From the NCBI GenBank assembly GCA_002600635.1, contig CP021374.1:186001-250000 (forward strand): 64,000 nucleotides of DNA, written 5' to 3'. The notes beneath the pieces are model-generated. The model was not told the DNA's origin, made no database searches, and saw only the letters and a list, made by a program, of their open reading frames with translations. Position 1 is the first letter of the stretch. Every line of letters begins with the position of its first letter. Both the position numbers and the translations under genes were made by a program. Below are positions 26,287-56,609 of the stretch, piece after piece. The DNA is from Rhizobium sp. ACO-34A (lineage in GTDB: Bacteria > Pseudomonadota > Alphaproteobacteria > Rhizobiales > Rhizobiaceae).

Positions 26287-26295
26287 GGTGCGGCC

Positions 26296-26436: not shown

Positions 26437-26481
26437 CCGGTCATCCGGTCCGCCATCTTCATTTCAACGCTGGAGTCTTTT

Positions 26482-28569: not shown

Positions 28570-28581
28570 GGAGTCATAAAA

Positions 28582-29148
28582 ATGCTCAAGCAACTTCGTC
28601 CGGCCATCGTCCTGCTCGTCGCCACGACGGCCATCACCGGCCTCGCCTATCCCTTCGCCATGACAGGCGTCGCGCAGGCGATCTTCCCGCAGCAGGCCAA
28701 TGGCAGTCTGGTCGAGAAGGATGGCCAGGTGATCGGCTCGTCGCTGATCGGTCAGTCCTTCACCAGTGAGAAGTATTTCCACGGTCGTCCCTCTGCGGCT
28801 GGCGATGGCTACAATGCTGCCGGCTCCTCCGGATCGAACCTCGGCCCGACCAGCGCCAAGCTGATCGACCGCGTCAAGGCCGATTACGAAGCGGCCAAGG
28901 CGACCAATCCGGATACGGAAGTGCCGATCGATCTCGTGACGGCATCAGGCAGCGGACTTGATCCGCATGTGTCGCCTGAGGCCGCCTACTTTCAGGTGCC
29001 GCGCGTCGCCAGGGCGCGTGGTATGGACGAGGCGGCAGTCCGGACTTTGGTCGATAGTCATGTCGAAGACCGCGAGTTCGGTGCCCTTGGCGAACCGGTG
29101 GTCAACGTGCTGGCGCTCAATCTGGCGCTTGACCAGACGTATCCATAA
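28582..29148 (+). CDS. kdpC: KdpC subunit
   Basis: A 188-residue protein with one N-terminal membrane helix ([18 protein letters not shown]) and a periplasmic domain with the family's [11 protein letters not shown] and [19 protein letters not shown] motifs. It helps assemble KdpA and KdpB. AAGGAG lies before the ATG at 28582, 12 nt after kdpB. Confidence 0.96.
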
Positions 29149-29223
29149 ATTGAAATAGGCGCAATATCGCATCGGACGGACATCGGTTGATGATCGTCCG
29201 ATGCGCCCGAGAGATTTCAACCC

Positions 29224-31929
29224 ATGCCGGACGACACGCGCGAAATGCTGAACAGGCCATCGCCGGATGCATTGCTGGAGAATGCCGAGCGGGAGACGCG
29301 AGGCAGGCTGAAGATCTTTCTCGGTGCCGCCCCCGGCGTGGGCAAGACCTACGAAATGCTGATGTCCGGCCGTGCGCTCCGGGTGGATGGTGTCGACGTG
29401 GTCGTCGGTGTCGTGGAAACTCATGGCCGCAGGGAGACCGAGGCGCTTCTCGACGGTTTCGAGATCATTCCGCGTAAGCGGATCGACTATCGCGGGCAGT
29501 TTCTCGAGGAAATGGACATCGACGCCATTCTGGCCCGGCGTCCGGCGCTGGTCCTCGTCGATGAACTTGCGCATACGAACGCCGCCGGCAGCCGCCATCC
29601 CAAGCGCTACATGGATGTGCAGGAGATCCTTTCGCAGGGGATCGATGTCTATTCGACGCTCAACATCCAGCATGTCGAGAGCCTGAACGACGTCGTTGCC
29701 CAGATCACCCGTATCCGGGTTCGCGAGACGGTGCCGGATTCCATCATCGACCGCGCCGATGACGTGGAGATCATCGACCTCACGCCCGACGACCTGATCA
29801 AGCGGCTGAAGGACGGCAAGGTCTATGTGCCGACGACGGCGCGCCGGGCAATCGAGAACTACTTTTCGCCGGGCAATCTGACGGCGCTTCGTGAGTTGGC
29901 GCTGCGGCGAACCGCGCAGCGGGTGGACGAGCAGCTTCTCAACCACATGCAGGCGCATGCGATCTCCGGCCCGTGGGCGGCGGGCGAGCGCATTCTGGTC
30001 TGCCTCGATCACAGCCGCAACGGCGCGAGCCTCGTGCGCTATGCCCGGAGGCAGGCCGAACGCCTCCGCGCGCCCTGGGCCGTGCTGCATTTCGAGACAC
30101 CGCAGTCGATCAACCTTTCCGAAGAGGACAAGGACCGGCTCGCTGCCAACATGCGGCTTGCCGAACAGCTTGGGGCCGAAACCGTGACGCTTCCCGGGCT
30201 TCGTGTCTCGCGGGAGATCATCGCTTATGCCCATGCCAACAATTTCACCCATATCGTGGTGGGACGGCCGGGCAAGCCGCGATGGCGGCAGCTCTGGCAG
30301 GGTTCGGTCACCCATGATCTGATCCGTCACGCGGGCGATATCAGCGTCCATGTGATTTCCAACGATGCGAAGGAACACGATCCGCGGCGCGGCATGAAGC
30401 CGGCATCGCAGCCGAAGCCATTCCGCATCAAGCCCTACCTGAAGAGCACGCTCTTCATCGCGCTTGCGGTTGCGGTCGGAGTTTTGCTCGACCAGACGCT
30501 TGCTGTGCAGAACCTTGCCCTTGTCATCCTGATGGCGGTGATGGCGGCTGCGATCCGCGGCGGGCTTGGAGCCGGTCTCTATGCCTCGCTGCTTGGCGTC
30601 CTCTCCTTCAGCTTCTTCTTCCTCGAGCCGCGCTACACTTTCACCGTGCGGGACCCGGAAAGCCTCGTCGCGCTCTTTTTCTTCCTCGGCGTGGCGCTGG
30701 TTGCGTCCAACCTGACGGCGGCCGTCCAGCGGCAGGCCGTTGCGGCGCGCCAGAGGGCACGGACGACGGAAGATCTTTACCTCTTCTCGAAGAAGCTCGC
30801 CGGCACCGGCACGCTCGACGATGTGCTGTGGGCGACAGCATTCCAGATCGCGTCCATGCTGAAGGTGCGCGTCGTCATCCTTCTGCCTGAAAAGGGAACG
30901 ATCGCCGTGAAGGCCGGCTATCCCCCTGACGATACGCTTGTCGATGCAGATATCGCCGCGGCAAAATGGGCATGGGAACATAACCGCCCAGCGGGCCGCG
31001 CCGCCGATACCCTACCGGGGGCAAAGAGGCTTTATCTACCGCTGCGAACGGGCCGCGAGGCCATCGGTGTCGTTGGCCTCGACAACGACAGGCAAGGTCC
31101 TCTGCTGACACCGGAGCAGCAGCGGTTGTTCGATGCCCTGGCCGATCAGGCAGCACTGGCCATCGAGCGCATCCAACTGGTTTCAGATGTCGACAAGGCG
31201 AAGCTGGCAGCCGAGACGGACCGGCTGCGCACGGCTCTCCTCACCTCCATCTCGCACGACCTCAAGACGCCGCTTGCCGCGATCATGGGTTCGGCGGGCA
31301 CCCTCAAGGATTTCGGCGGCAGCCTGTCGGAGGAGGCGCGCAGTGAACTGCTCTCGACCGTCATCGACGAATCCGAGCGGTTGAACCGCTTCATTGCCAA
31401 CCTGCTCGACATGACGCGCATCGGTTCCGGAGCGATGGAGCCGAATTACGCCCTGCATTTCGTCGGCGATATCGTCGGAACGGCGCTCAACAGGGCCGCG
31501 AAGATCAGCTCCCGGCATCGGGTCGTCGTCAACATTCCGGCCGATCTGCCGATGCTGAAGGTCGATGCCGTTCTCTTCGAGCAGGTGCTCTTCAACCTGA
31601 TCGACAACGCCGCCAAATATGCCCCGGATGAAACGGTGATCGAGATACGCGGCGCGCGGGAAAATGGCTCGGTGACGCTTTCGGTGATCGACGAGGGGCC
31701 GGGAATTCCGGCCGACGACATCGAGCGGATCTTCGACAACTTCTACCGTGTCAGCAAGGGCGATCATGTGCGCGCCGGCACGGGGCTCGGTCTTGCAATC
31801 TGCCGCGGCTTCGTGGAAGCCATGGGCGGCACCGTCCGGGCGGCCAATCGCTCCGACCGGTCCGGTGCGGTTTTTACCATCCGAATGCCGGTGCCGGCCG
31901 AACTGCCCGTTCTGGGAGAAAGCGAATGA
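29224..31929 (+). CDS. kdpD: KdpD sensor histidine kinase
   Basis: A 901-residue membrane kinase. Order: KdpD N-terminal domain with a P-loop-like GAAPGVGKTY (34-43), a universal-stress-like domain, four membrane helices around residues 405-500 (for example FIALAVAVGVLLDQTL), a GAF domain, HisKA with His678 in SISHDLKTP, and an ATPase domain (NAAKYAPDE, GTGLGL). It senses low K+ or salt and phosphorylates KdpE. In several proteobacteria EIIA-Ntr also binds KdpD, which matters here because a PtsN-like gene follows kdpE. Confidence 0.96.
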   Translation: MPDDTREMLNRPSPDALLENAERETRGRLKIFLGAAPGVGKTYEMLMSGRALRVDGVDVVVGVVETHGRRETEALLDGFEIIPRKRIDYRGQFLEEMDIDAILARRPALVLVDELAHTNAAGSRHPKRYMDVQEILSQGIDVYSTLNIQHVESLNDVVAQITRIRVRETVPDSIIDRADDVEIIDLTPDDLIKRLKDGKVYVPTTARRAIENYFSPGNLTALRELALRRTAQRVDEQLLNHMQAHAISGPWAAGERILVCLDHSRNGASLVRYARRQAERLRAPWAVLHFETPQSINLSEEDKDRLAANMRLAEQLGAETVTLPGLRVSREIIAYAHANNFTHIVVGRPGKPRWRQLWQGSVTHDLIRHAGDISVHVISNDAKEHDPRRGMKPASQPKPFRIKPYLKSTLFIALAVAVGVLLDQTLAVQNLALVILMAVMAAAIRGGLGAGLYASLLGVLSFSFFFLEPRYTFTVRDPESLVALFFFLGVALVASNLTAAVQRQAVAARQRARTTEDLYLFSKKLAGTGTLDDVLWATAFQIASMLKVRVVILLPEKGTIAVKAGYPPDDTLVDADIAAAKWAWEHNRPAGRAADTLPGAKRLYLPLRTGREAIGVVGLDNDRQGPLLTPEQQRLFDALADQAALAIERIQLVSDVDKAKLAAETDRLRTALLTSISHDLKTPLAAIMGSAGTLKDFGGSLSEEARSELLSTVIDESERLNRFIANLLDMTRIGSGAMEPNYALHFVGDIVGTALNRAAKISSRHRVVVNIPADLPMLKVDAVLFEQVLFNLIDNAAKYAPDETVIEIRGARENGSVTLSVIDEGPGIPADDIERIFDNFYRVSKGDHVRAGTGLGLAICRGFVEAMGGTVRAANRSDRSGAVFTIRMPVPAELPVLGESE

Positions 31930-33117: not shown

Positions 33118-34368
33118 TCAGGCGTAACGGCTGATCGCAAGGTCGGTGGCGTCGATCTCAGCCTTGCGGCCGCTGACGATGTCGCTGATCACGCGGGCGG
33201 AACCGCAACTCATCGTCCAGCCGAGCGTGCCGTGACCGGTGTTCAGGAAAAGGCCCTGGATCTTGGTCGGGCCGATGACTGGGGTGCCATCCGGCGTCAT
33301 CGGACGAAGGCCCGACCAGAAGAGCGCCTGCGATACGTCGCCGCCCGGGAAGAGATCGGTGACGGAGTGCTCGAGCGTGCGGCGGCGGGCAAGCCCAAGG
33401 TCGTTGGTATAGCCCGAGATTTCCGCCATGCCGCCGACGCGGATACGATCTCCGAGGCGGGTGATGGCGATCTTGTAGGTTTCGTCCATGACAGTCGATT
33501 CTGGAGCGCGGCTGACATCCGTGATCGGGATCGTCAAGGAGTAACCCTTGACCGGATAGACCGGCAGGCTGATGCCGACCTGCTTGAGAAGCAGCGGCGA
33601 GAAGCTGCCGAGCGCCACGACTACGGCGTCGCCGCGCACCGGCGCTCCGTCCGTCACGATGCCGCGCACGCGGCCTCTTTCGATGTCGAAGCCCTTGATG
33701 GTGGTGCCGTACTGGAACTTGACGCCGAGTTCTGCGGCCTTTTCGGCGAGCGCATTGGTGAACTTGAAGCAGTCACCGGTTTCGTCCTTCGGTGTCAGAA
33801 GACCGCCGACGATCTTTTCGCGGACGTGCCGGAGAGCGGGTTCGACCCGGATGCAACCTTCCGGATCCAGAACTTCATAAGGGATGCCGTCCGCGGCAAG
33901 CGCCTTCACGTCCTTTGCCGAGGCGTCGAGCTGATCCTGTGTGCGGAAGAGTTGCAGCGTTCCCTGCATGCGCTCGTCATAGGCAAGGCCGGTTTCCTCG
34001 CGCACGGCGGCGAGCGAGGTTCGGCTGTAATCGGCGAGACGGAGCATGCGGCTCTTGTTGAGCGCATAGCGATCCGTGGTGCAGTTCGCCAGCATCTTGA
34101 ACATCCACGACAGCATGGCCATGTCCAGCTTGGGGCGCAGGATCAGCGGTGCATGTTCCATGAAAAGCCACTTCATGGCTTTCAACGGAATTCCGGGTGC
34201 GGCCCAGGGCGAGCAATAGCCGAACGATACCTCGCCGGCATTGCCGAAGCTTGTTTCGAGTGCCGGACCGGGCTGGCGGTCGACGACGACGACCTCATGT
34301 CCGGCCTTTGCGAGCTGATAGGCGGACGTCACGCCGACTACGCCGGCGCCGAGAACGATGACTTTCAT
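33118..34368 (-). CDS. dadA: D-amino-acid dehydrogenase, small subunit type
   Basis: A 416-residue FAD enzyme. The dinucleotide-binding loop [17 protein letters not shown] starts at residue 7. Conserved DadA parts are [22 protein letters not shown] and the C-terminal [19 protein letters not shown]. It oxidises D-alanine to pyruvate and ammonia, passing electrons to the respiratory chain. It is 27 nt downstream of the racemase on the same strand, giving an L-Ala to D-Ala to pyruvate route. Confidence 0.95.
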
Positions 34369-34395
34369 GATTGCCTCAATGACAGAAGAGAAATG

Positions 34396-35529
34396 TTAGC
34401 GGTATTGGCGGCGGTAGCGGTGGCCGAGACTGGTCAGCATCTCATAGGAAATCGTTCCGGCATCTGCGCCGAGCATTTCCAGCGTCTGGTTCGGGCCGAT
34501 GACCTCGACCAGACTGCCCAGTGACAGCGTGCCTGCGGGCAGGGCAGAGATATCGATCGTGATGCTGTCCATGGATACGCGGCCGACGATTGGCAGGCGC
34601 ACGCCATTGTAATAGACGGCGCCGCGGTCGCTCAGGCTGCGCGGCAGGCCATCGGCATAACCGGCGGCGATGGTCGCAAGCCGCATCTCGGTTTGGGCCA
34701 CATAGGTCGCGCCATAGCCGACACGGGCACCGGCGGGAACGGTCCGCGTCTGGATTACCGCCACATCGAGGCGGACGACCGGTTCCATCGGATTGATTTC
34801 GCCATTGTTCGGCGCACCGCCATAAAGGGCGATGCCGGGGCGGGCGAGCACGCCGTGATATTCGCTGCCGAGGAAGACGCCGCCGGAATTGGCAAAGCAG
34901 ACGCTGAATGCAGGAAATTCTTCTGCGATCCGGCGCATTTCCGCAAGCTGGTCGCCATTCTGCTGGCTGTTTTCATCATCGGCGGAAGCCAGATGGCTCA
35001 TGATGAAGAGAATTTCGATGTCCTTGTTGCCGCGCAGTTCATCAGCCAGAAGGGCACGTTCTTCCGGCGGGAAGCCCAGCCGGGACATGCCTGTGTCGAA
35101 CTGCAGCACGGCGGGCAGGCGGCGATTGAGCGCGCGCGCGGTCGCAGACCACAGCTGCAACTGTTCCATCGAGTTCAGCACCGGGATGATGCCGGCTTCG
35201 GCGGCCGGTGTCTCGTTGCCCGGTTGCAGCCCGTTCAGGACGAAGATGCGAGCTTCTTCCGAGAGATGCGGCTTGATCTCGGTCGCCTCGCAGAAATGGG
35301 CGACGAAGAAATGGCGGCAGCCGGCGGCAAGAAGCGTGGCTGAGATTCTTGCGGCGCCGAGTCCGTAGGAGTCGGCCTTGACCACGGCTGCGGCCTTGGC
35401 CGGTGATACGGCGGCCGAAAGCTTCTCGTAATTGCGGCTGATGGCGCCGAGATCGATGGTGAGATAGCCGGACGCGCCTTCATCGCTCGTCCGTTCTCGA
35501 ATGCGGTTGTTCCAGATGGCGTTGTCCAC
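34396..35529 (-). CDS. dadX: Alanine racemase (catabolic, DadX type by context)
   Basis: A 377-residue PLP enzyme. The Schiff-base Lys is Lys51 in VVKADSYGLG, and the catalytic Tyr lies in VGYGATYVAQ. It interconverts L- and D-alanine. Coupling with dadA and a divergent Lrp-family gene suggests the catabolic rather than the cell-wall enzyme, though one enzyme may serve both. Confidence 0.93.
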   Translation of the reverse strand: MDNAIWNNRIRERTSDEGASGYLTIDLGAISRNYEKLSAAVSPAKAAAVVKADSYGLGAARISATLLAAGCRHFFVAHFCEATEIKPHLSEEARIFVLNGLQPGNETPAAEAGIIPVLNSMEQLQLWSATARALNRRLPAVLQFDTGMSRLGFPPEERALLADELRGNKDIEILFIMSHLASADDENSQQNGDQLAEMRRIAEEFPAFSVCFANSGGVFLGSEYHGVLARPGIALYGGAPNNGEINPMEPVVRLDVAVIQTRTVPAGARVGYGATYVAQTEMRLATIAAGYADGLPRSLSDRGAVYYNGVRLPIVGRVSMDSITIDISALPAGTLSLGSLVEVIGPNQTLEMLGADAGTISYEMLTSLGHRYRRQYR

Positions 35530-43098: not shown

Positions 43099-43839
43099 AT
43101 GACCAAAGTGCTAACAGACGCCCGCTCGATCCGAATCAAAGGTCGCTCCTTCCTGGCGGTCGTATTGTCGCCGGACATGCCGCTTGATCAGTGGCTGGAA
43201 AGGCTCGACGATCTTGCCGCGCGTTCGGCGGGTTTCTTCCTGTCCAGGCCTGTCGTTCTCGACGTGAGTGAGCTGTCGCTCGACAAGGCGCAGATCAAGG
43301 ATCTTCTCGCCGAGCTTGCCGCGCGCAATGTCAGCATCATGGGTATCGAAGGCGCGCGTCCCTCGGCCATCGGGCCGGGAATGCCGCCGGCGCTGAAGGG
43401 TGGCCGCCCGGCATCGGACTTCGAGATCACGCCCTCGGAGTCGGCTGACGAGCCGGAAGAGAAGAAGGAAGAAAGCGCGCCTGTGCTGGTGCCGGAAGTG
43501 CGTCCGGTGCTGCAGTCGCTGGTTATCCGTGAGCCGGTGCGCTCGGGGCAATCGGTGATTTTTCCGGAAGGCGACGTGACGATCATCGGATCGCTCGCCT
43601 CGGGCGCCGAGGTTATCGCCGGTGGGTCGGTTCATATCTACGGCGCGTTGCGCGGCCGCGCCATGGCGGGGTCGCTCGGAAACGCCGAAGCACGCATTTT
43701 CTGCCGCAAGCTCGAAGCGGAGCTGGTCGCTATCGACGGCATCTACAAGATGGCCGAAGACCTGCCCGCCGCACTTCGCGGTCAACCCGTACAGCTATGG
43801 CTCGAAGACGATTCGATCATGGCAGCAAAAGTTATCTGA
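43099..43839 (+). CDS. minC: Septum-site inhibitor MinC
   Basis: A 246-residue cell-division inhibitor. The N-terminal domain (about 1-80) would block FtsZ. A Pro/Glu-rich linker follows (about 110-130). The C-terminal beta-helix (about 140-230; VTIIGSLASGAEVIAGGSVHIYGALRGR split by linkers) binds MinD. First gene of the minCDE operon; start ATG 43099. Confidence 0.94.
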   Translation: MTKVLTDARSIRIKGRSFLAVVLSPDMPLDQWLERLDDLAARSAGFFLSRPVVLDVSELSLDKAQIKDLLAELAARNVSIMGIEGARPSAIGPGMPPALKGGRPASDFEITPSESADEPEEKKEESAPVLVPEVRPVLQSLVIREPVRSGQSVIFPEGDVTIIGSLASGAEVIAGGSVHIYGALRGRAMAGSLGNAEARIFCRKLEAELVAIDGIYKMAEDLPAALRGQPVQLWLEDDSIMAAKVI

Positions 43840-43869
43840 GCCGATGCCGGCCGAAAACAGGAGAGCAAG

Positions 43870-44685
43870 ATGGGGAAGGTAATCGTCGTCACTTCAGGCA
43901 AGGGCGGGGTCGGCAAGACGACCACGACTGCCGCGCTCGGCGCGGCCCTGGCGCAGCGGAATGAAAAGGTTGCAGTCGTGGACTTCGATGTCGGCCTGCG
44001 CAACCTCGACCTCGTCATGGGGGCGGAGCGCCGAGTGGTCTACGATCTGGTCAACGTGATCCAGGGCGACGCCAAGCTGCAGCAGGCTCTGATCCGCGAC
44101 AAGCGGCTTGAGACGCTCTTCCTGCTTCCGGCCTCCCAGACACGCGACAAGGACAACCTGACGCCCGAGGGTGTCGAGTGGGTCATCAACGAGCTGCGTC
44201 GTTATTTCGACTGGATCATCTGCGACAGCCCGGCCGGCATCGAACGCGGTGCGACGCTTGCCATGCGGCATGCGGACGTCGCCGTCGTCGTCACCAACCC
44301 GGAAGTCTCCTCCGTCCGCGACAGCGACCGCATCATCGGTCTTCTGGACGCCAAGACCCTCAAGGCCGAACGCGGCGAGCGCATGGAAAAGCACCTGCTG
44401 CTGACCCGCTACGACCCCGCCCGCGCCGAGCGTGGCGACATGCTGAAGGTGGATGACGTCCTCGAAATCCTGTCCATCCCGTTGCTCGGCATCATCCCGG
44501 AAAGCATGGATGTGCTGCGTGCCTCCAATATCGGTGCGCCGGTTACGCTCGCCGATGTCCGCAGTGCTCCGGCCATGGCTTATTTCGACGCGGCACGGCG
44601 TCTGGCGGGCGAAACCCTGCCGATCACCATTCCGGGAGAAAAGCGCGGGATCCTCGGCAAGATCTTCGCCCGGAGGGCAGCATGA
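43870..44685 (+). CDS. minD: Septum-site ATPase MinD
   Basis: A 271-residue ParA-like ATPase with the deviant Walker [10 protein letters not shown] (Lys11, Lys16) and a C-terminal amphipathic membrane-targeting tail ([11 protein letters not shown]). It recruits MinC to the membrane and oscillates with MinE. AGGAGAGCAAG precedes ATG 43870. Confidence 0.97.
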
Positions 44686-44942
44686 GCATCTTTCGGCTTT
44701 TCACCCGGCAGAGATCTGCTCCGATGGCGCGGGAGCGCCTGCAGGTCCTTCTCGCCCATGAACGCGCCTCATCTGGCTCGGATCTGGTGGCAACGCTGCG
44801 CGAGGAAATCCTCGCCGTCATCGCGAAGCACGTGGAGCTCGACAGCGATCGCGTGCAGGTGAAGATGGACCGCGACGAGCATTATTCGATCCTCGAGATC
44901 GATGTCGAAATCCCGCTCGAGACGACCATGCAGGCCGCCTGA
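44682..44942 (+). CDS. minE: Cell division topological factor MinE
   Basis: An 86-residue protein with the N-terminal MinD-stimulating segment ([14 protein letters not shown]) and the C-terminal topological domain ([20 protein letters not shown]). It overlaps minD by 4 nt (ATGA). It restricts MinCD to the poles so that division occurs at mid-cell. Confidence 0.96.
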
Positions 44943-44991: not shown

Positions 44992-45029
44992 TCAGGCTGT
45001 CGCCCTTGGGGCGGCGGCCTGATTGCTTT
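44992..45029 (+). terminator. Terminator of the minCDE operon
   Basis: TCAGGCTGTCGCC (44992-45004) pairs with GGCGGCGGCCTGA (45010-45022) over 13 bp, two of them G-U, around a 5-nt loop, followed by TTGCTTT. It is 50 nt past the minE stop. The remaining 170 bp before asnB (45030-45202) contain no gene and should hold the asnB promoter. Confidence 0.6.
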
Positions 45030-45202: not shown

Positions 45203-47164
45203 ATGTGCGGCATTGCCGGCTATATGATCCCCCGCGAGGCACCGGCTATGCCGGCGCTGCTGCGGCGCATGGCCGGTGTCATCCGTCACCGCGGGCCTGA
45301 TGCGACCGGCATTCATACCGCTCCGGGGATCGGCCTCGCCCACGCCCGTCTCTCCGTCGTCGACGTCGAGGGCGGCACCCAGCCGATGTCGCTTGCCGAT
45401 GGCAGCGTTTGGATCTCCTTCAACGGGGAGATCTTCAACCACGTCGAGCTGCGCGAAAGCCTCAGGCAGCGTGGCCGCATCTTCCGCAGCCGGTCCGACA
45501 CGGAAGTCATCCTGCACCTCTATGACATGTTCGGGCCGGATTGCGTCGATCACCTGAACGGCGATTTCGCCTTCGCGCTCTGGGACGCACGACGCGGGCG
45601 GCTGATGCTGGCGCGCGACAGAATGGGTGTCCGGCCGCTCTACTACACGGAAGCCTGCGAGGGGCTCTACTTCGGTTCCGAGATCAAGGCCTTGTTCGAG
45701 GTGCCCGGTATCGACCCGGAACCCGATCCCTTGGCGCTCGACCAGATCTTCACCTTCTGGTTCCCGCTCGCTCCCCGCACGCCCTTCAAGGACATTCTGG
45801 AACTTCCGCCCGGCCACATGCTGCTGGCCGAGGGGGGAACGACCAGGGTCCATTGCTACTGGCAGCCAAGTTTTCCCGATGCCGAAGAGGCCGGGCGAGG
45901 GGCGGATGAAGGCTCGGTCAAGGAGGAGCTGCGATCCCTGCTGACGGATGCGGTGCGTATCCGGCTCAGGGCCGATGATCCCTGCGGGGCCTATCTCAGC
46001 GGCGGGCTCGATTCCTCCCTGATTTCCGCAATCGCCGCGGAACTGTCGCCCCAGCCGCTGAAGACCTTTTCGGTCACTTTCGATGATGCCGAGTTCGACG
46101 AGGCGGGACCGCAGCAGATCGTCGCCAATGCGCTTGGGACGGATCACCATGCATTGCGATGCGCCGCCGGTGAAATCGGCAGGCTTTTCCCTGACGTGAT
46201 CCGCCATGTCGAGCAGCCCCTGCTGCGCACCGGGCCGGTGCCGCTCTTTGCCCTTGCCGGTCATGTTCGGGAAAACGGGGTCAAGGCGATCCTGACAGGT
46301 GAGGGAGCCGACGAGGTCTTCGCCGGCTACGATATCTTCAAGGAAGCCAAGCTTCGCCGCTTCGTCGGGCGTCAACCCACCTCTCGCCGCAGGCCTCTGC
46401 TTTACCAGCGGCTTTATCCCTATCTGCCGCGCCTCAATCGCCAGTCACCGGCCTATCTCTCTGCGTTTTTTGCCGCGACGCCTCGTCCCGACGATCCGAT
46501 CTATTCGCATCAGCCGCGGTTCCGGGTCACGGCAGGGGCCAAGCTGTTCTTTTCCCGCGCACTGTCCGATGACATCGGAAGTTACAGCGCGCTCGACGAT
46601 CTTCGCGGTCGTCTGCCTGCCGATTTCTCGCGCTGGCACGAACTGCATCAGGCCCAGTATCTGGAAATGACCGGTCTTCTGCCGGGCTACATCCTCTCCG
46701 CCCAAGGCGACCGGGTGAGCATGGCCCATGGCATAGAGGGCCGCTATCCCTTCCTCGACCATCGGCTGGTGGAATTTGCCGCGCGCATTCCGCCGTCGAT
46801 GAAGCTGAAGGGGCTCTGCGAAAAACACATTCTGCGCGAGGTGGCGGGAGACCTCCTGCCGGAGAGCATTCGCGATCGGCCGAAACAGCCGTACCGGGCA
46901 CCTGATGGTGCAGCCTTTATCGGTGAAAGCACGCCCGCCTATGTGCGAGAGCTTCTCTCGGAGGGAACGCTTCGCGAGGCCGGGCTGTTCGATCCCGCAG
47001 CCGTTGGCCGGCTGTTCGGGAAGCTGTCGTCCGGTTCTGCGCCCAGCGCCCGCGACAGTATGGCGCTGACCGGCATCTTGTCGACGCAGCTATGGCATGA
47101 AAAATTTCCTCGCCCTGCGCTGGGCGAGAACGACGCGCATCCAAGGGGAGTGGCCGCTTCATGA
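45203..47164 (+). CDS. asnB: Asparagine-synthase-like glutamine-dependent amidotransferase
   Basis: A 653-residue enzyme. The mature N-terminal nucleophile is Cys2 (MCGIAGY), with the class II glutaminase domain to about 200. The ATP-pyrophosphatase domain carries SGGLDSSLISAIAAEL (about residues 268-283). It would transfer ammonia from glutamine to an adenylated carboxylate. Membership of an operon with an acyl carrier protein and an acyl ligase suggests it amidates a carrier-linked or released acid rather than making asparagine (inference). AAGGAA precedes ATG 45203. Confidence 0.9.
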   Translation: MCGIAGYMIPREAPAMPALLRRMAGVIRHRGPDATGIHTAPGIGLAHARLSVVDVEGGTQPMSLADGSVWISFNGEIFNHVELRESLRQRGRIFRSRSDTEVILHLYDMFGPDCVDHLNGDFAFALWDARRGRLMLARDRMGVRPLYYTEACEGLYFGSEIKALFEVPGIDPEPDPLALDQIFTFWFPLAPRTPFKDILELPPGHMLLAEGGTTRVHCYWQPSFPDAEEAGRGADEGSVKEELRSLLTDAVRIRLRADDPCGAYLSGGLDSSLISAIAAELSPQPLKTFSVTFDDAEFDEAGPQQIVANALGTDHHALRCAAGEIGRLFPDVIRHVEQPLLRTGPVPLFALAGHVRENGVKAILTGEGADEVFAGYDIFKEAKLRRFVGRQPTSRRRPLLYQRLYPYLPRLNRQSPAYLSAFFAATPRPDDPIYSHQPRFRVTAGAKLFFSRALSDDIGSYSALDDLRGRLPADFSRWHELHQAQYLEMTGLLPGYILSAQGDRVSMAHGIEGRYPFLDHRLVEFAARIPPSMKLKGLCEKHILREVAGDLLPESIRDRPKQPYRAPDGAAFIGESTPAYVRELLSEGTLREAGLFDPAAVGRLFGKLSSGSAPSARDSMALTGILSTQLWHEKFPRPALGENDAHPRGVAAS

Positions 47165-47418
47165 TCAATTCCAAGCTTTTGCAGACCGTTCGCGGCTTCA
47201 TTGCCGACAATTTCCTTTTCCGCGCCGAGAACGAAGCGTTGGATGACGACCAGTCGCTGCTGGATAGCGGCATCGTGGATTCCACCGGCGTTCTGGAAAT
47301 CATCGCCTTTCTCGAACAGACCTACGAAATCTCCATCGCCGACAGCGAGATTGTTCCCGAGAACCTCGATTCCGTCGGCCGCATCGCGGATTACGTGGAG
47401 CGCAAGCGCGCCGCCTGA
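47161..47418 (+). CDS. Acyl carrier protein
   Basis: An 85-residue carrier protein. The phosphopantetheine attachment site is Ser41 in GIVDSTGVLEI, preceded by LLDSG; this DST pattern differs from the DSL of fatty-acid ACP and is usual in specialised carriers. The ATG overlaps the asnB stop by 4 nt (ATGA), so translation is coupled. The next gene can load it with an acid. Confidence 0.9.
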   Translation: MINSKLLQTVRGFIADNFLFRAENEALDDDQSLLDSGIVDSTGVLEIIAFLEQTYEISIADSEIVPENLDSVGRIADYVERKRAA

Positions 47419-47445
47419 GGTGCTGCCGGAGAGACGGAAAAGCCG

Positions 47446-48987
47446 ATGCGCATCGAGGATCATTTGCGCGCAAGCGCCCGCAAGCTGCCTGAAAAGGTGG
47501 CGTTGATGGCGGGCGAGACACAGCTGACCTATTCCGGCCTTGATGAAGCGAGTGACAGACTGGCTTCTGTCTTGTTTCGGTCGGGTGTCAGACCTGGCGA
47601 CCGGGTCGTGCTGCTTCTGGAAAACGGATCGGAATTCGTCACATCGCTCTTCGCAATCTGGAAGGCAGGCGCGGTTGCCTGTCCGCTGCATCCGTCCACC
47701 CGGGCGGAAAAGCTTGGACGCATCGTCGAAAGCCTCGGCGCTTCCGCTCTGGTGACGCAGGCTCGATTGCTGCCGACCGCACAAGCCGCTGTTGCGCGTC
47801 GTGACGGTTCGACTGTTCTGCTCGCATGGGGACTGGCGGAGGAGGCGCTGAACGAGGCCGCTGCCCGTTGTGAGCAGCTCCTTGCCGAGGGAACTGACGC
47901 CCCTGCATTGAATAATGACGAGCGCGCACTCGCTTTGATCCTTCATACCTCCGGCTCGACCGGCGAGCCGAAGGGAGTGATGCATACCCATGCGAGCCTC
48001 GGTGCTGCCTGCGCCTCGATCATCGTTTATCTCGGCAATGACGAGAACGATGTCGTCTTCAACGTCCTGCCGTTGTCCTTCGGCTACGGGCTGACGCAGG
48101 TTGTGACCATGGCCATGGTGGGCGGCACTCTGCATCTGGAAAAATCCTTCGCCTTCCCTGCCGCCATCCTCAAGCGACTGGCGGAAACGCGAGCGACGGG
48201 CCTGCCTCTGGTCCCTTCGATGGCTGCAGCGATTGCCAACATGAAAGAGCTGGAACCCGGCTTCCTGCCCGACATCCGTTACATCACCAGCGCAGCCGCG
48301 GCGCTGCCTCCGGCTATCGCCGGCAAGATCAGGCGGCTCTTTCCCGCTGCCCGGCTGCACATCATGTATGGCCAGACGGAATGCATCCGGGCCTTGAGCC
48401 TGCCGCCGGAAGCACTCGGTGCACATCCTGCCTCTGTCGGCTTCGCTATTCCGGGAACGGAGGCGTTCGTCATCGACGAGAATGGCGAACGGGCTGCTCC
48501 GGGAACGGTCGGCGAACTCTTGATACGCGGTCCCCACGTGATGACCGGTTACTGGAACGATCCCGATGCGAGCGCCACCAAGCTGCGGGAAGAGGCTGGC
48601 GGCGACAGCCGTATCCTGCAGACGGGGGATCTGTTTTCCGCCGATGAGAACGGGTTCCTGACCTTCGTCTCTCGCCGCGACGACATCATCAAGTCTCGTG
48701 GCGAGAAGGTCAGCCCGCAGGAGGTCGAGCGGGCGCTTTATGCCATCGAAGGAATCGTGGAGGCGGCCGTGACCGGAGTGCCGGATGACTTCCTTGGTCA
48801 GGCGGTGAAGGCCTTCGTTGTCTTGGCGCCCGGCGTCTCGCTCTCCCATCGGGACATCGTGCGCAGCCTCGCGCGGACACTGGAAGATTACATGCTGCCC
48901 CAGAGCACGGAGTTCTGCGAGAGCCTGCCGAAAACCGCATCGGGCAAATTGCGACTGGGACTGGCACAGGAAACGATTGGGGATTGA
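47446..48987 (+). CDS. AMP-forming acyl ligase, acyl-CoA/acyl-ACP synthetase type
   Basis: A 513-residue adenylate-forming enzyme. Motifs: P-loop LILHTSGSTGEPKGVMHTH, YGQTE near 313, SRRDDIIKSRGEKVSP, and the C-terminal Lys in KTASGKL. It would activate a carboxylic acid as AMP ester and pass it to CoA or to the ACP encoded just upstream. The acid is unknown. Codon use matches its neighbours. Confidence 0.9.
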   Translation: MRIEDHLRASARKLPEKVALMAGETQLTYSGLDEASDRLASVLFRSGVRPGDRVVLLLENGSEFVTSLFAIWKAGAVACPLHPSTRAEKLGRIVESLGASALVTQARLLPTAQAAVARRDGSTVLLAWGLAEEALNEAAARCEQLLAEGTDAPALNNDERALALILHTSGSTGEPKGVMHTHASLGAACASIIVYLGNDENDVVFNVLPLSFGYGLTQVVTMAMVGGTLHLEKSFAFPAAILKRLAETRATGLPLVPSMAAAIANMKELEPGFLPDIRYITSAAAALPPAIAGKIRRLFPAARLHIMYGQTECIRALSLPPEALGAHPASVGFAIPGTEAFVIDENGERAAPGTVGELLIRGPHVMTGYWNDPDASATKLREEAGGDSRILQTGDLFSADENGFLTFVSRRDDIIKSRGEKVSPQEVERALYAIEGIVEAAVTGVPDDFLGQAVKAFVVLAPGVSLSHRDIVRSLARTLEDYMLPQSTEFCESLPKTASGKLRLGLAQETIGD

Positions 48988-48992
48988 GGGAT

Positions 48993-49979
48993 ATGACGGG
49001 GTTCAGCGCAGACGAATTGCGGCTCGATGCAGATGGGGAGATCGCACGGATTTCCGGCTGGATGGTCGAGACCGTGGGAAAGACGTTGCGCAAGCGCGGC
49101 GTCGTGGTTGGCCTTTCCGGCGGGATCGACAGTTCGGTGACCGCCGCGTTGGCGGTCCGCGCGCTCGGGGCGGACAAGGTGTTCGGCATTTTCATGCCGG
49201 AAGATGAATCCGATCCGCAGAGCCTCGAACTCGGGCGGCAGCTTGCGGAGAAGCTTGGTATTTCGACCGCCGTGGAAAACATCGGCCCGATCCTTGTCGC
49301 CGCCGGTTGTTATACCCGCCGCGATACCTTCATCCGGGAGATCCTGCCGGAATACGGCGAGGGATGGCGATGCAAGGTGGTGTTGGAATCGGCTCTGTCC
49401 GGCCGGGGCTACAATATCTCCTGGCTGGTTGCCGTCGATCCCGATGGCCGCGAGTACAGGCAGCGCATGCCGCTCACCGTCTATCTCGGCATGATCGCGG
49501 CCGCGAACATGAAGCAGAGAACGCGCAAGCAACTGGAATACTACCACGCCGACCGCCTGAATTTTGCCGTTGCGGGAACGCCGAACCGGCTGGAATACGA
49601 TCAGGGGTTCTTCGTGAAGAACGGTGACGGTGCCGCCGACCTGAAACCCATCGCCCATCTCTACAAGACGCAGGTCTACCAGTTGGCGGAAGCGCTCGGC
49701 GTTCCCGAGGGCATCCGTCAGCGGCCGCCGACCACCGATACCTGGTCGCTGCCGCAGACGCAGGACGAGTATTACTTCTCCCTGCCTTATCGCGAAATGG
49801 ACCTCAGCCTCTACGCTCTCGACCGGGGAAAGAGCCTTGCGGATACGGCAGCCGTCGTCGGACTTTCGGAAGCCGAGGTAGAGGCTGTTTGGAAGAGCAT
49901 CGAGGCGAAGCGTCGCGTTGCCGCCTATCTCGGCGCCCCGCCGCTGACCATGCTGGAGAAGACGCAAGGCGTCAGCTGA
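48993..49979 (+). CDS. nadE: Ammonia-dependent NAD-synthetase-like protein
   Basis: A 328-residue ATP-pyrophosphatase with the P-loop SGGIDSSV (42-49). It has no N-terminal nitrilase domain, so it needs free ammonia or a partner. It is longer than usual NH3-dependent NadE (about 275) and carries an unusual insertion-rich middle (YGEGWRCKVVLESALSGRGY). ATG 48993 with GAGGG fits, 5 nt after the ligase stop. It could be true NAD synthase, or a relative that amidates the product of this pathway; the first is annotation by family only. Confidence 0.8.
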   Translation: MTGFSADELRLDADGEIARISGWMVETVGKTLRKRGVVVGLSGGIDSSVTAALAVRALGADKVFGIFMPEDESDPQSLELGRQLAEKLGISTAVENIGPILVAAGCYTRRDTFIREILPEYGEGWRCKVVLESALSGRGYNISWLVAVDPDGREYRQRMPLTVYLGMIAAANMKQRTRKQLEYYHADRLNFAVAGTPNRLEYDQGFFVKNGDGAADLKPIAHLYKTQVYQLAEALGVPEGIRQRPPTTDTWSLPQTQDEYYFSLPYREMDLSLYALDRGKSLADTAAVVGLSEAEVEAVWKSIEAKRRVAAYLGAPPLTMLEKTQGVS

Positions 49980-51078
49980 AGCGTTCGCCGATCAGTGGAG
50001 ACCATGTTTCTCCCGCAAGACCGGTGATTAGGGCCTTGCCGCTATCGATCGCCTCGCGAATGTCAGGGTCTTTCGTCTGGGCAACCACGAAGGAACGGCC
50101 GAGGAACAGCGCCTTCTTGCGCAACAGGAAGGGTGTGAGCCATGGCTGGCCAGCACCGCGGATCGCGGCGCAGCCTGCATCGGCGGCGTGGTGAAGCATA
50201 TCGTCCACCATGGCTTCCATCCGTTCAGGACGGGCGAGCGATTGCAGCACCCAGGCGATGCCACCGGGGCGGCCGTAATAGACATGGGCAGCAACCGGTG
50301 CTCCATCCGATCCATAGGCGACGCGACGCACGATCGGGCCGAACTGGCTCTTTTCCCTTGCCTGAGCGAGCAGCCAACCGAGAGATTGCCGGTTCCAGAC
50401 GGGAGCAAGGGGAAAGGCGGGCGCCAGTGCTATCAGTGCTTCGGCAAGCTCGTCTTCCCCGACGGCCTGAAACGCCGGACCTTTTCCGCTCGACGTCTCA
50501 AGACCGAAGGAGGCACCGCCGCCCACTCGTGCGATCCGGTCGGCAAGCGCTCCGAAGGGCTTCAGCAATCTCGCGGCGGGGTGCACGCGGTTCAGGACAT
50601 CGATGCCGGTAGACCCCGGCCGGAAAACCCTGAGCCAGTTCATGCTGTAGGCCGGGATCAGGTCGTGGCCGAGCTTGCGCCACATGCCGAGCGCCGTGGC
50701 GTTGGCTGTCTCGCTGATCGAGACATCCTGCGGACCTGAAAGAAAGGCCCGGATGAGACGTGCTCCGGCCAGCGGATTTTCCTTCGGGCGTTCCACCATC
50801 ATGCTGCCGGCAAAAGCTGCGCGGATTTCCCGGCCACCGATGGTCATGCGGGCGGGATTGACGCCGATGAAGCCCGAGACCTTGCCGGCCTCGTTTACGA
50901 ACACATGCGAAGGCAGGTCCGGGTCCGCGAAGAGATGGTCGATGAAAGTCTGCCGCAGAGCGGTCTCAAGTGCCGGCGAAGCTGCGGTCTCGTCACGAAA
51001 CGTCCGCTGGAAAAGATCTGCGACCGGGGCCAGATCGTCTTTGGTCAAGGGACGGACGGTGGAAGCAGGACTGTTCAA
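49972..51078 (-). CDS. GNAT-type N-acetyltransferase-like protein
   Basis: About 368 residues. The N-terminal GNAT half begins STVRPLTKDDLAPVADLF and has the acetyl-CoA strand region HVFVNEAGKVSGFIGV. A C-terminal half follows (VVRRVAYGSDGAP unlike, rather IVRRVAYGSDGAPVAAHVYY) resembling a second GNAT fold. No ATG or GTG fits; TTG at 51078 is preferred, while the open frame runs further up without conserved sequence. It converges on nadE with an 8-bp overlap of the ends. Substrate unknown; it could acetylate the product of the neighbouring cluster. Confidence 0.65.
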   Translation of the reverse strand: MNSPASTVRPLTKDDLAPVADLFQRTFRDETAASPALETALRQTFIDHLFADPDLPSHVFVNEAGKVSGFIGVNPARMTIGGREIRAAFAGSMMVERPKENPLAGARLIRAFLSGPQDVSISETANATALGMWRKLGHDLIPAYSMNWLRVFRPGSTGIDVLNRVHPAARLLKPFGALADRIARVGGGASFGLETSSGKGPAFQAVGEDELAEALIALAPAFPLAPVWNRQSLGWLLAQAREKSQFGPIVRRVAYGSDGAPVAAHVYYGRPGGIAWVLQSLARPERMEAMVDDMLHHAADAGCAAIRGAGQPWLTPFLLRKKALFLGRSFVVAQTKDPDIREAIDSGKALITGLAGETWSPLIGERFS

Positions 51079-52109: not shown

Positions 52110-52445
52110 GAAAAGTCTCCATTGTTTTCGAAGCGCGCCATCACTCAGGGCGTCGCGCGGTTGGGAAATAACATCGCTGAAAGACAGTTTTTCATTTGCC
52201 GTTTCGGTTCCGGGGCAGGCCGATATCTTCGTTGGTTTTCTCACGGCTGGCGAGAACCCTGCGCCTCATCTCTTCGGATGTGGTCGGGGTGGCGGAAAGG
52301 TTTCGGGCGCTGCAAACGAAGCCTTGAAACTCGTGTGCCGGGCGCGGACCATTTTTTCGCCATATGCGTTGACCAAAGGTAATCGTGTCCCGTCGATCGC
52401 TCGATTCCATATCAGCGGTCGCAACAGCTTTGAAGGAGTACAGGG
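52110..52445. other. Intergenic region without recognised gene
   Basis: 336 bp between divergent genes. I see open frames but none with a ribosome-binding site or a family resemblance. It must contain the promoters of both neighbours. AAGGAG at 52432-52437 serves the DUF992 gene. Confidence 0.5.
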
Positions 52446-52979
52446 ATGAAAAAGATTCTTGCCGTGGCGCTCGTCGCCCTGCCGGTTCTGGCAGGCGCCG
52501 GAGTTGCCGTTTCGGCCGATGCCATCTCCCGTCAGGAACCGGTTCCGGATTTCAAGGAGCAGGATAGCCGCGGTGGCGTCCGGATCGGCTATCTCGATTG
52601 CTCGATCGGTGGCGGCGTCGGTTATGTTCTCGGATCCGCCAAGGAAGCCGATTGCGTATTTACCTCCGCCATCGGCAGCGAGCCGCTCGACCGTTACACC
52701 GGCGTCGTCCGCAAGATGGGTGTCGATGTGGGCTTTACCACCCGCAGCCGTCTGGTCTGGGCCGTATTCGCTCCGACTGCCGGCTATCATCATGGCTCGC
52801 TCGGCGGCCTCTATCAGGGCGCGACTGCGGAAGCGACGCTTGGTGCGGGCATCGGCGCCAACGTCCTCGTTGGTGGTACTTCCGGATCGATCCATCTGCA
52901 GACGATCAGCGTGAGCGGTCAGCTCGGCCTGAACCTTGCCGCGACCGGCACGTCCGTGACGCTCACACCGGAAAGCTGA
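52446..52979 (+). CDS. DUF992 secreted protein
   Basis: A 177-residue protein. A Sec signal (KKILAVALVALPVLAGAG, cleavage near AVSADA) precedes a DUF992 domain with two conserved Cys (YLDCSIGGGVGYVLGSAKEADC) and the pattern GVDVGFTTRSRLVWAVFAP. DUF992 proteins are periplasmic or envelope proteins typical of Rhizobiales, of unknown function. It stands alone and ends in a strong terminator. Confidence 0.9.
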   Translation: MKKILAVALVALPVLAGAGVAVSADAISRQEPVPDFKEQDSRGGVRIGYLDCSIGGGVGYVLGSAKEADCVFTSAIGSEPLDRYTGVVRKMGVDVGFTTRSRLVWAVFAPTAGYHHGSLGGLYQGATAEATLGAGIGANVLVGGTSGSIHLQTISVSGQLGLNLAATGTSVTLTPES

Positions 52980-53038
52980 TCTCGCGGCATCGGCTGCCGG
53001 TCGAGCGATCGGCTGGTGGGCGAAATTCCGTGAAAAAC

Positions 53039-53070
53039 AAGAAGGCGCGTCCAACGGGACGCGCCTTCTT
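53039..53070. terminator. Strong bidirectional terminator
   Basis: AAGAAGGCGCGTCC (53039-53052) and GGACGCGCCTTCTT (53057-53070) form a perfect 14-bp stem with loop AACG. On the minus strand TTGTTTTTC follows, ending the nine-gene operon; on the plus strand it ends the DUF992 gene. Confidence 0.9.
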
Positions 53071-54260: not shown

Positions 54261-55865
54261 TCAGGCGAGGAATTCGGCACTTTCGCGAACGTGAATAACA
54301 GTCGGGCCATCCGCTGCAAAGGCCGCGGTGACGGCTGCTTCCAGTTCGTCGAAGCTTGTCGGTTCGGCAGTGTGGCAGCCATAGGCCTTTGCCAGTGCGA
54401 CGAAATCCGGATTGTGCTGGTTGACGCCGATGGTCGGGATGTTTCGTACGATCATGCCGTCGCGGATCTGGGCGAGACTGTCGTTGTTCCACAGGATGAT
54501 CGCCATCGGCAGCTTGTTTTCAACCGCCGTGCCGAGTTCCTGAAGCGTGAACTGGAAACCGCCGTCGCCGACGATGACGGCAACAGGTGTTTCCGGCGAG
54601 GCGATCTTGCCGCCGATAGCTGCCGGAAGCGCAAAGCCGAGCGTGCCGTAACCCGCCGGGAAGAACCACTTGCCGGGTTTCTCGGTCGGGAAGAAGGCAT
54701 AGCCGGTGTAAGCAAGCTGGGTCATGTCGGTATAGACGGCGCCTTCCGGCGGGATAGCCCTGCGCAGCGCGTCGAGTACGCGCACATGCTTCTGTTCCAG
54801 CGGCGTGAGGTTGTCGCGCTCGCTCTGGCGAAGGTCGGCAATGGCGTTCGATCCGTTGAAGCCGCCGATGACGGCGTCGGGCAATGCATCGAGCAGGCCT
54901 TCTACCGCGAGCGTCGCATCGGCGCAGATGGCGATTTCGGCATCGTAATCGCGGGCCAGTACGCTGCGGTCGATATCGACGCGGATCAGCTTGCCGGACA
55001 TCGGCAGCGGGCCGTCCATCCAGATATCGGGTTCGGCGAGTTCGGTGCCGATGGCGAGGATGACGTCGGCGCTCTCGATGAACTCCTGCGTCTTGCCGCG
55101 GTCGAGCGTGGTCTCGATGGCCAGCGGATGGCTGTCCGGCAAAACGCCCTTGCCGGCGATGGTCGGAACGACGGCCGCGCCGACCTTTTCCGCCAGCATT
55201 TTCACGGCAGATGCCGCGCGGGCCGCACCGCCGCCGACGATGATGAGGGGACGCTTCGCCTGCGCCAGCAATTGGGCTGCTGCGGCAAGATCTGCGGACG
55301 CGGGTGCTGCTTCGCCACCGGCGCTGCGCGCCTTCACCGGCTTGTCGTCCGGCGTCTTGAATACATCGAGCGGGATGGAGATATGGACAGGGCGCTTGCG
55401 GCCGGTCTCGAAGAGCGCGAAGGCGCGTGCCACATATTCACGGACCTGCTCGGGGTCGGTCGCGATGGCGGAGAAGGCTGTGAGCGGTTCGGTCACGCGG
55501 GCCTGATCGGTGATTTCGTGCAGACGGCCGCGCCCCATGCCAAGATCCTTGGTGGCGGCGACGGAGGTGATGACGAGCATCGGGATGCTGTCGGAATAGG
55601 CCTGTCCGATCGGGGTCGCGGCATTGGTGACGCCGGGGCCGGAAATCAGCAGGCAGACGCCCGGCTTGCCGGACATGCGCGCATAGCCATCGGCCATGAA
55701 ACCCGCACCCTGTTCGTGGCGTACGCCGATATGGCGGATGCCGGCGGCCTCAAGCCCGCGATAGGCTTCGAGCGTGTGAACGCCCGGCATGCCGAACACG
55801 GTGTCGACGCCATAGGCGGCAAGGATCTGCATGAGGCGGCTGCCGCAGGAAATTGCTTCGGTCAT
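54261..55865 (-). CDS. ThDP-dependent 2-oxoacid decarboxylase/synthase, acetolactate synthase-like
   Basis: A 534-residue ThDP enzyme with three domains. The catalytic Glu is Glu51 in RHEQGAGFMADGYAR. The ThDP-Mg motif begins GDGGFQFTLQEL and ends at WNNDS. Relatives include acetolactate synthase and 5-guanidino-2-oxopentanoate decarboxylase (AruI), to which it seems closer in length and N-terminus. It would decarboxylate a 2-oxoacid. No small regulatory subunit gene is near, arguing against branched-chain amino acid synthesis. Confidence 0.85.
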   Translation of the reverse strand: MTEAISCGSRLMQILAAYGVDTVFGMPGVHTLEAYRGLEAAGIRHIGVRHEQGAGFMADGYARMSGKPGVCLLISGPGVTNAATPIGQAYSDSIPMLVITSVAATKDLGMGRGRLHEITDQARVTEPLTAFSAIATDPEQVREYVARAFALFETGRKRPVHISIPLDVFKTPDDKPVKARSAGGEAAPASADLAAAAQLLAQAKRPLIIVGGGAARAASAVKMLAEKVGAAVVPTIAGKGVLPDSHPLAIETTLDRGKTQEFIESADVILAIGTELAEPDIWMDGPLPMSGKLIRVDIDRSVLARDYDAEIAICADATLAVEGLLDALPDAVIGGFNGSNAIADLRQSERDNLTPLEQKHVRVLDALRRAIPPEGAVYTDMTQLAYTGYAFFPTEKPGKWFFPAGYGTLGFALPAAIGGKIASPETPVAVIVGDGGFQFTLQELGTAVENKLPMAIILWNNDSLAQIRDGMIVRNIPTIGVNQHNPDFVALAKAYGCHTAEPTSFDELEAAVTAAFAADGPTVIHVRESAEFLA

Positions 55866-55889
55866 AATGGTTGATCCATCCAGTGTGTT

Positions 55890-56609
55890 TTACTTGGCCG
55901 CGTCGGCAAGGCCCGACATGATCGAGCCATACTCATCGGCAACGACCATCAGCGAGGCGCCGAGGTTCCTGGCATAATCCCGTTCCGTGCGCGACCACGC
56001 CGGCATGATCCAGGGCTTGCCGGCAGCCTTCGCCGCGGCCGCGATCCGGGCGAGATCTGCCTTGTCGGCATCGGTGTTGCGATAGGCGCCGCGGCCGCTG
56101 TCGAGTGAAAGGTCGCTCGGGCCGACGAACACGCCATCGACGGTCGGCAGGGCCAGGATCGCCTCGATGTCGACGAGTGCTGCGGCCGATTCCACCATCG
56201 GATAGCACTTCGTGTTGGCGTTCTCGCGCTCGTAATATTCCGGCGAAACACCGCCATAACGGGCCGGCCGGGTGCCGGAGAAGCTGCGATTGCCGAGCAT
56301 CGGATACTTGGCGGAACGGGTCACTTCGCGGGCGTGTTCCAGATTGCCGATATGCGGGATGATGACGCTGTCGGCGCCCATGTCCAGCGCCTGCTGGATC
56401 GGGATCGCCTGCGGTCCCAGCACCTTGGCATGCATCTTCATGCCGAGAGCCTTGCCGAGTGCGATGATGCGGTCGAGAGCTTCGAGATCAAAGAGGCCAT
56501 GCTCGATATCGAGCACGGTATGACGATAGCCGATATCATGGGCGATCTCGATCATCGCCTGATGCGGCGTCGAAAGCCAGACGGCAAGGGTGTCGATCGT
56601 GTCAGCCAT
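55890..56609 (-). CDS. HpcH/HpaI-family aldolase
   Basis: A 239-residue class II pyruvate aldolase-like protein. The base His37 lies in DIEHGLF, and metal ligands Glu140 (MVESAAAL) and Asp166 (GPSDLS) are present. The Arg that usually orients the pyruvate moiety (VRVP in relatives) is replaced by HAKVLG around 60-65. It would make or cleave a 4-hydroxy-2-oxoacid. It overlaps the RraA-like gene by 8 nt. Confidence 0.85.
   Translation of the reverse strand: MADTIDTLAVWLSTPHQAMIEIAHDIGYRHTVLDIEHGLFDLEALDRIIALGKALGMKMHAKVLGPQAIPIQQALDMGADSVIIPHIGNLEHAREVTRSAKYPMLGNRSFSGTRPARYGGVSPEYYERENANTKCYPMVESAAALVDIEAILALPTVDGVFVGPSDLSLDSGRGAYRNTDADKADLARIAAAAKAAGKPWIMPAWSRTERDYARNLGASLMVVADEYGSIMSGLADAAK

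Follow-up and report, generated by a model that had tools for sequence, protein, structure and literature searches.

Introduction

Several described systems combine an amidotransferase, an adenylating ligase, a carrier protein or an acyltransferase in ways that resemble part of a five-gene cassette in Rhizobium sp. ACO-34A. The cassette, an operon of asnB-like, acp, ligase and nadE-like genes with a convergent GNAT acyltransferase gene, lies in a 64,000-nucleotide stretch (GenBank assembly GCA_002600635.1, contig CP021374.1, positions 186,001 to 250,000, forward strand) that is called the window throughout and supplies the coordinates given here. The XrtA/PEP-CTERM exopolysaccharide genes (TIGR03108 and TIGR03098) likewise include an AsnB-type amidotransferase and an AMP-forming ligase. 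However, the cassette scores well under the cut-offs of both models, in a distant locus among XrtA-type genes (L171) as well, and adds a NadE-like enzyme and a tandem GNAT, while the linked Rhizobiales loci that were read have Wzx/Wzy genes. DltA-DltC-type pairs share with the cassette a single adenylating ligase of ~510 residues adjoining a single free-standing carrier protein. They differ in that the carrier protein of the window falls under the DltC cut-off and the cassette adds two amide-forming enzymes; no DltB-type membrane acyltransferase showed up in the gene scan, with no model search aimed at it. By analogy, the cassette may work like the exosortase-associated pair and the Dlt-type ligase-carrier pairs.

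The N-acetylglutaminylglutamine amide system (TIGR03104) also ties an AsnB-type amidotransferase genetically to a GNAT protein, its partner in that system, but the cassette has a carrier and a ligase, and its AsnB is under the TIGR03104 cut-off. HfsK of the Caulobacter holdfast is reportedly a predicted acyltransferase tied to an adhesive polysaccharide system with a deacetylase, a likeness drawn from description only; we know of no carrier, ligase or amidotransferase partner of HfsK. The cassette is a case of carrier-dependent acyl modification, a known kind of system, in a variant for which no description as a five-gene set was found in the open-licence PMC literature, where a passing mention could have been missed. 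A conserved cluster for exopolysaccharide in Zoogloea and Aquincola contains, according to one report, two genes for asparagine synthetase (PMC9012009).

The cassette stands about an even chance of being a single pathway for making a small acyl group with an amide and joining it to surface polysaccharide. If so, rhizobial coats, whose chemistry matters for attachment and symbiosis, would gain a substituent and an enzyme use that have not been associated with them before. The set is conserved in well-studied symbionts, such as Sinorhizobium meliloti 1021 (on pSymB), where it is hidden under the names of asparagine and NAD synthases. Its role will therefore probably be wrongly assigned in automatic annotation and in metabolic models.

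Genes and Protein Families

The genome measures 6.28 Mb in five contigs, and the operon sits on C4, of 306 kb. A reading of the sequence alone had described a compact operon at 45203-49979 with a DST-bearing carrier protein and a convergent GNAT gene; the genes are placed as it said, with an ATGA overlap and small gaps, and Pfam and NCBIfam matches support the names. The five genes are as follows.

45203..47164, + strand: asnB-like glutamine-dependent amidotransferase, 653 aa; N-terminal Cys, PP-loop SGGLDSS, motif E-x-P-x-x-RT-x-P-x-P
47161..47418, + strand: acp, free-standing acyl/peptidyl carrier protein, 85 aa; DST phosphopantetheine site, ATGA overlap with asnB
47446..48987, + strand: AMP-forming acyl/aminoacyl ligase, 513 aa; presumed loader of the carrier protein
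48993..49979, + strand: NadE-like ATP-pyrophosphatase, presumed amide synthetase, 328 aa; without a glutaminase domain
49972..51078, - strand: tandem-GNAT acyltransferase, 368 aa, TTG start; convergent, with an 8-base 3' overlap with the nadE-like gene

A gap of 27 bases separates the acp and ligase genes. The mechanically called open reading frame of the nadE-like gene starts at TTG 48984, which would give 331 aa; ATG 48993, preceded by GAGGGAT, is the likelier start.

The AsnB-like protein passes the general asparagine synthase model TIGR01536 (515 bits; cut-off 267). It fails three narrower models: the E. coli-type asparagine synthase B model NF006949 (346 bits; cut-off 499), the XrtA/PEP-CTERM amidotransferase TIGR03108, its second-best NCBIfam match (447 bits; cut-off 817), and the N-acetylglutaminylglutamine amidotransferase TIGR03104 (366 bits; cut-off 570). 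Cys2, the PP-loop Asp and the R-T of the motif are each present in 103 of 103 aligned members, the window's own counted. The E. coli AsnB stretch VTTIRAST, compared for its aspartate-binding residues, aligns with LLRT, a two-residue gap and GPV in the window's protein, and RT-x-P-x-P is fixed across the family. The closest solved structure is 7ylz (241 bits), a hydroxyamidotransferase with a natural-product role.

The carrier protein passes PF00550 (28 bits; cut-off 20.8) and fails the DltC model (24 bits; cut-off 68) and the ornithine-lipid carrier protein model NF052616 (54 bits against a cut-off of 130); its closest solved structures are peptidyl carrier proteins, at no more than 38 bits. 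The ligase matches PF00501 (287 bits) and PF13193 (68 bits), bears the C-terminal motif PKTASGK, and falls short of its best NCBIfam match, the exosortase A-associated ligase TIGR03098 (380 bits; cut-off 592). At the position aligned with the Asp that binds the amino acid in peptide-synthetase domains, 119 ligases have D in 62 cases, G in 34 (including the window), T in 12, N in 6 and another residue or a gap in 5. The GNAT protein matches PF13527 weakly, at 22 bits, below the cut-off of 25.

The NadE-like protein passes NF002048/PRK00876, a model named NAD(+) synthase, with 489.4 bits (cut-off 313), and shares the PP-loop and the NAD-synthase fold with that subfamily. Its length, which had been called unusual, is normal there, the profile being 330 positions long. 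What is distinctive is an insertion of ~50 residues between two NAD-synthase halves with the PP-loop conserved. The PF02540 match is split into two stretches 63 residues apart as against 10 positions in the profile. The AlphaFold2 model (pLDDT 89) is nearest among solved folds to 2e18, an NH3-dependent NAD synthetase. The insertion, the lack of a glutaminase domain and the company the gene keeps all set it apart from the subfamily's name. Of at least 566 stretches encoding a NadE-like protein, the 80 best are the named loci; a ligase is found in 77 of these, a carrier protein in 78 and AsnB in 63. For both TIGR01536 and NF002048, which the cassette proteins pass, genomic context argues against the names asparagine synthase and NAD synthase.

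Co-Inheritance and Gene Order

The five genes form a real unit. In a family set of 151 genomes, the NadE-like protein is found in 28 and is absent from 123 at E 1e-30, and AsnB at 743 bits or more occurs in exactly the same 28 genomes (29 of 151 in all at E 1e-120). GNAT matches at E 1e-20 occur in 29 of the 151, 26 of them among the 28 (one cut by a contig end); the other three are at paralogue level, with 26-27% identity. Co-occurrence of the five genes in other genomes had been set beforehand as a check on the sequence-only reading, and it is borne out by these counts. A methyltransferase (E 1e-25) is matched in 24 of 151 genomes: all 10 matches above 200 bits lie within the 28, and the 14 weaker ones (at most 110 bits) are nearly all outside. 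Fisher tests on the co-occurrence tables ignore kinship and leave out G041, a genome discussed below, and the weak matches.

The order AsnB-ACP-Lig-NadE is kept at 25 of 27 family loci and 60 of the 80 named loci, and the grouping is therefore more than chance. Genera with the conserved order include Sinorhizobium, Mesorhizobium, Rhodopseudomonas and Bosea, and Azospirillum has the same genes in a different order. Besides the nadE-like gene itself, present in all 80, the named loci hold GNAT in 69 cases, the methyltransferase in 20, a flippase in 13 and MinD in 3. GNAT lies directly upstream on the same strand in 24 named loci and convergent downstream in 33. Seventeen named loci are without AsnB; three are cut by contig ends, and 14 come from Neorhizobium, Pseudorhizobium and relatives. 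A wider draw from the phylum gave 15 positive genomes of 398, three of them already met, and the 12 remaining loci all have the four core genes, with the order changed in six.

Two variants were seen in passing. One genome (G059) holds a second cassette copy on contig C2 (L065) besides that on C4 (L045), with equal match scores for GNAT, ACP and ligase; the asnB match of the second copy is in two pieces and its NadE matches at only 40%, so it is probably a decaying or recombined duplicate. At L177 (6681-9413), a 911-aa open reading frame combining an AMP-ligase and a thioesterase domain lies ahead of the cassette and may be a different loading enzyme. At the corresponding position, a ligase is matched in L178 and L179 as well.

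Linkage to Surface Polysaccharide Genes

Neighbourhoods were scanned within ~10 kb, some shorter, with a panel of 19 polysaccharide proteins that detects only relatives of these, and 40 regions at round coordinates of cassette-bearing genomes served as controls. At least one panel gene was found at 24 of 80 named, 8 of 27 family and 6 of 12 distant loci, as against 3 of 40 controls. At least two were found at 20 of 80 named, 4 of 27 family and 6 of 12 distant loci, as against none of 40 controls; two of the distant loci (L171 and L176) supplied panel queries. Fisher p values for two or more panel genes are 1.6e-4 for the named and 0.02 for the family loci, uncorrected for kinship or for genomes common to the sets, which partly overlap (L039 and L069, for example, share their place on contigs of equal length, 284748) and are not independent. 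The polysaccharide linkage is an enrichment, not a rule.

Individual loci illustrate the linkage. Within ~30 kb, S. medicae and S. meliloti 1021 (pSymB) have the cassette, min genes, GNAT, methyltransferase, Wzx, a second GNAT, Wzz, Wzy, a deacetylase and glycosyltransferases; in S. meliloti 1021, asnB, ligase, nadE-like gene and GNAT lie at ~1,439,000-1,455,400 of pSymB. Plasmid p1 of Azospirillum brasilense carries on one strand GT2, GT4, GT4, deacetylase, ACP, ligase, AsnB, NadE and a GNAT-type protein, with ~0.6 kb between the deacetylase gene and the cassette; the last protein, of 368 aa, had no match to the GNAT profile and is not shown to be the same gene. Two Neorhizobium-like genomes (G047 and G140), of the type without asnB beside nadE, were searched, and in both asnB was found elsewhere, amid flippase, second GNAT, Wzz, Wzy, deacetylase and GT4 genes (Pfam on a selection of genes). 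At L171, the cassette lies among XrtA-type genes, with a TIGR03006 deacetylase at 391 bits (cut-off 276) and chain-length and ATPase matches under their cut-offs. Shinella zoogloeoides XJ20 has two glycosyltransferases and a Wzz-like gene upstream of GNAT on the opposite strand; Shinella WSC3-e has no glycosyltransferase or Wzz-like genes as in XJ20. Mesorhizobium ciceri WSM1284 has one glycosyltransferase within 4 kb.

A distant GNAT paralogue (~25-28% identity to the window's) stands beside the linked-cluster flippase at L055, L057, L059, L106, L107, L110-L112, L182 and L183, and similar paralogue matches occur in three cassette-free genomes. SMb21506, named in the title of a cited work on succinoglycan, may be the Wzz gene of the linked cluster. 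An assignment of the S. meliloti cassette to the tags SMb20481-SMb20484 proved wrong: in PMC4961836 and PMC4581636, SMb20484 is SupA of a sugar transporter.

A number of results weigh against a role in surface polysaccharide or against the unity of the set. No panel match was found in 56 of 80 named and 19 of 27 family loci, nor in 24.8 kb around the window's own operon, and the rest of its contig gave one weak glycosyltransferase-like place with the panel. The linked-cluster flippase (E 1e-15) and GT4 (E 1e-60) have no match in the window's own genome. The linked GT4 is found in 8 of the 28 cassette genomes, is missing from 20, and is present in 6 of the 123 cassette-free genomes. Two cassette genomes (G054 and G106) are without a GNAT match. 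One genome (G041) has AsnB, at 42% identity and 442 bits, without a NadE-like gene; its lower score led us to set it aside, although at 44% identity the AsnB of the Azospirillum cassette stands almost as far from the window's. Reading the identity of the acid from the ligase position described above was abandoned, as the split among D, G, T and N in the family leaves the substrate not readable.

Proposed Function

Because the set travels together and lies beside polysaccharide genes in about a quarter of cases, it probably builds a small amide-bearing group for the outer coat. From family membership, the ligase would adenylate a small acid and load it onto the carrier protein. The AsnB-like enzyme, using glutamine ammonia, and the NadE-like enzyme, using ATP and ammonia or another amine, would then amidate one or two carboxylates of the acid or of a sugar acid. 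The tandem GNAT would pass the carrier-bound acyl group on to a free amine. The most plausible one belongs to an amino sugar and could be exposed by the polysaccharide deacetylase recurrent in linked clusters. In some species, a HemK/PrmC-like enzyme would methylate the product. It is speculation that the two amide-forming ATP-pyrophosphatases point to a substrate with two carboxylates, or to amidation of both the acid and a sugar acid, one step each.

The sequence-only reading had proposed a carrier-bound acyl amide or the modification of a surface molecule. Its surface part gains from the recurrent Wzx/Wzy linkage, yet the 24.8 kb around the window's operon are without a panel match; the acyl amide part, with its putative steps, substrate and product, fits the enzyme families. 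A wider claim, which we advance tentatively and with the balance somewhat against it, is that the at least 566 proteobacterial PRK00876-type "NAD synthase" genes are amide synthetases of a carrier-protein pathway and, with an AsnB-type partner, serve an amidated N-acyl decoration of adhesive exopolysaccharides. We know of no description of such a polysaccharide substituent or of such a use of the NadE fold.

Alternative Explanations

The plainest alternative is primary metabolism, in which AsnB makes asparagine, NadE makes NAD and the operon is a chance grouping. Annotated records do name the genes asnB and nadE, and in this genome a match to the full Asn_synthase domain is unique to AsnB. Contig C1 of the same genome, however, encodes a complete NAD synthase of 559 aa that uses glutamine (NF010588, 834 bits; cut-off 479). 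With this enzyme present, the strain does not depend on the NadE-like protein for NAD, and what the sequence-only reading had named as a refutation of itself, a NadE-like protein that is the sole essential NAD synthase, is not the case. AsnB of the cassette type, itself below the E. coli-type model cut-off, occurs only with the NadE-like gene, in those 28 of 151 genomes, the rest being without both at the cut-offs used, with distant asparagine synthases uncounted. Primary metabolism is therefore very improbable. A stronger contender, although still rather unlikely, is that the product is small and soluble, an N-acyl amide serving as metabolite, signal or osmolyte, and that the polysaccharide linkage is incidental, for example through co-location on accessory islands. 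Most named loci, like the window, lack a nearby panel gene, flanking genes vary between genomes, and the structural neighbours of AsnB and ACP, the hydroxyamidotransferase and the peptidyl carrier proteins, would suit such a product. Nevertheless, asnB lies inside a polysaccharide cluster in both checked genomes where it is separated from the cassette. The clusters common to at least 3 of 29 stretches, the cassette aside, are the recognised methyltransferase, minCDE, flippase and a loose ABC ATPase group (5 stretches), together with one unrecognised group of 3 and one antisense to the cassette. Nothing among them stood out as a dedicated exporter or synthase, with no model search aimed at these.

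The destination of the acyl group allows a further reading, in which the GNAT belongs with N-acyltransferases of N-myristoyltransferase type, the carrier-bound acyl goes to a lipid, peptide or protein, and the cassette modifies an envelope lipid or protein. The resemblance to N-myristoyltransferase is at 14% identity, and a common fold does not give function. Lipid genes lie downstream in one locus, that of Shinella XJ20, and there are none among the recognised common clusters of the 29 stretches, while the paralogous GNAT adjoins the flippase in polysaccharide clusters. We consider this reading improbable, and attachment of the amide-bearing group to surface polysaccharide remains the preferred one.

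Genomic Surroundings

The genes minC, minD and minE lie directly upstream of the operon, at 43099-44942. In S. medicae, S. meliloti and S. fredii, too, min genes lie no more than a few kb from the cassette, in a different relative order. One feature was noted in the interval.

44992..45022, + strand: terminator-like hairpin of 14 pairs between minE and asnB; found by consensus scan only, not evidence of function

Such scans found 10 terminator-like sites in all, as against 5.3 in shuffles, and the hairpin may set the operon apart from minCDE. Scanning of genes around the operon brought up no polyketide or peptide synthase module, which agrees with the sequence-only reading, and an Rfam scan of the window gave nothing at gathering scores.

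Pfam and NCBIfam scans place an MBL-fold (metallo-beta-lactamase) gene, a beta-lactamase-fold gene, a TPP (thiamine pyrophosphate) enzyme and an aldolase past the GNAT gene, at higher coordinates. Between the first two is a 262-aa open reading frame (52269-53054, - strand) with no Pfam or NCBIfam match at E 0.001, which may not be a gene. The TPP enzyme (54264-56609, - strand) matches 5-guanidino-2-oxopentanoate decarboxylase with 649 bits (cut-off 500) and adjoins the HpcH/HpaI aldolase; the two are possibly an arginine-derived catabolic pair. Farther away, kdpA, a kdpB-like ATPase gene and a KdpD-type sensor kinase gene (24583-31926) make up a potassium uptake operon. Adjacent D-amino acid dehydrogenase and alanine racemase genes (33121-35529, - strand) perhaps serve D-alanine catabolism.

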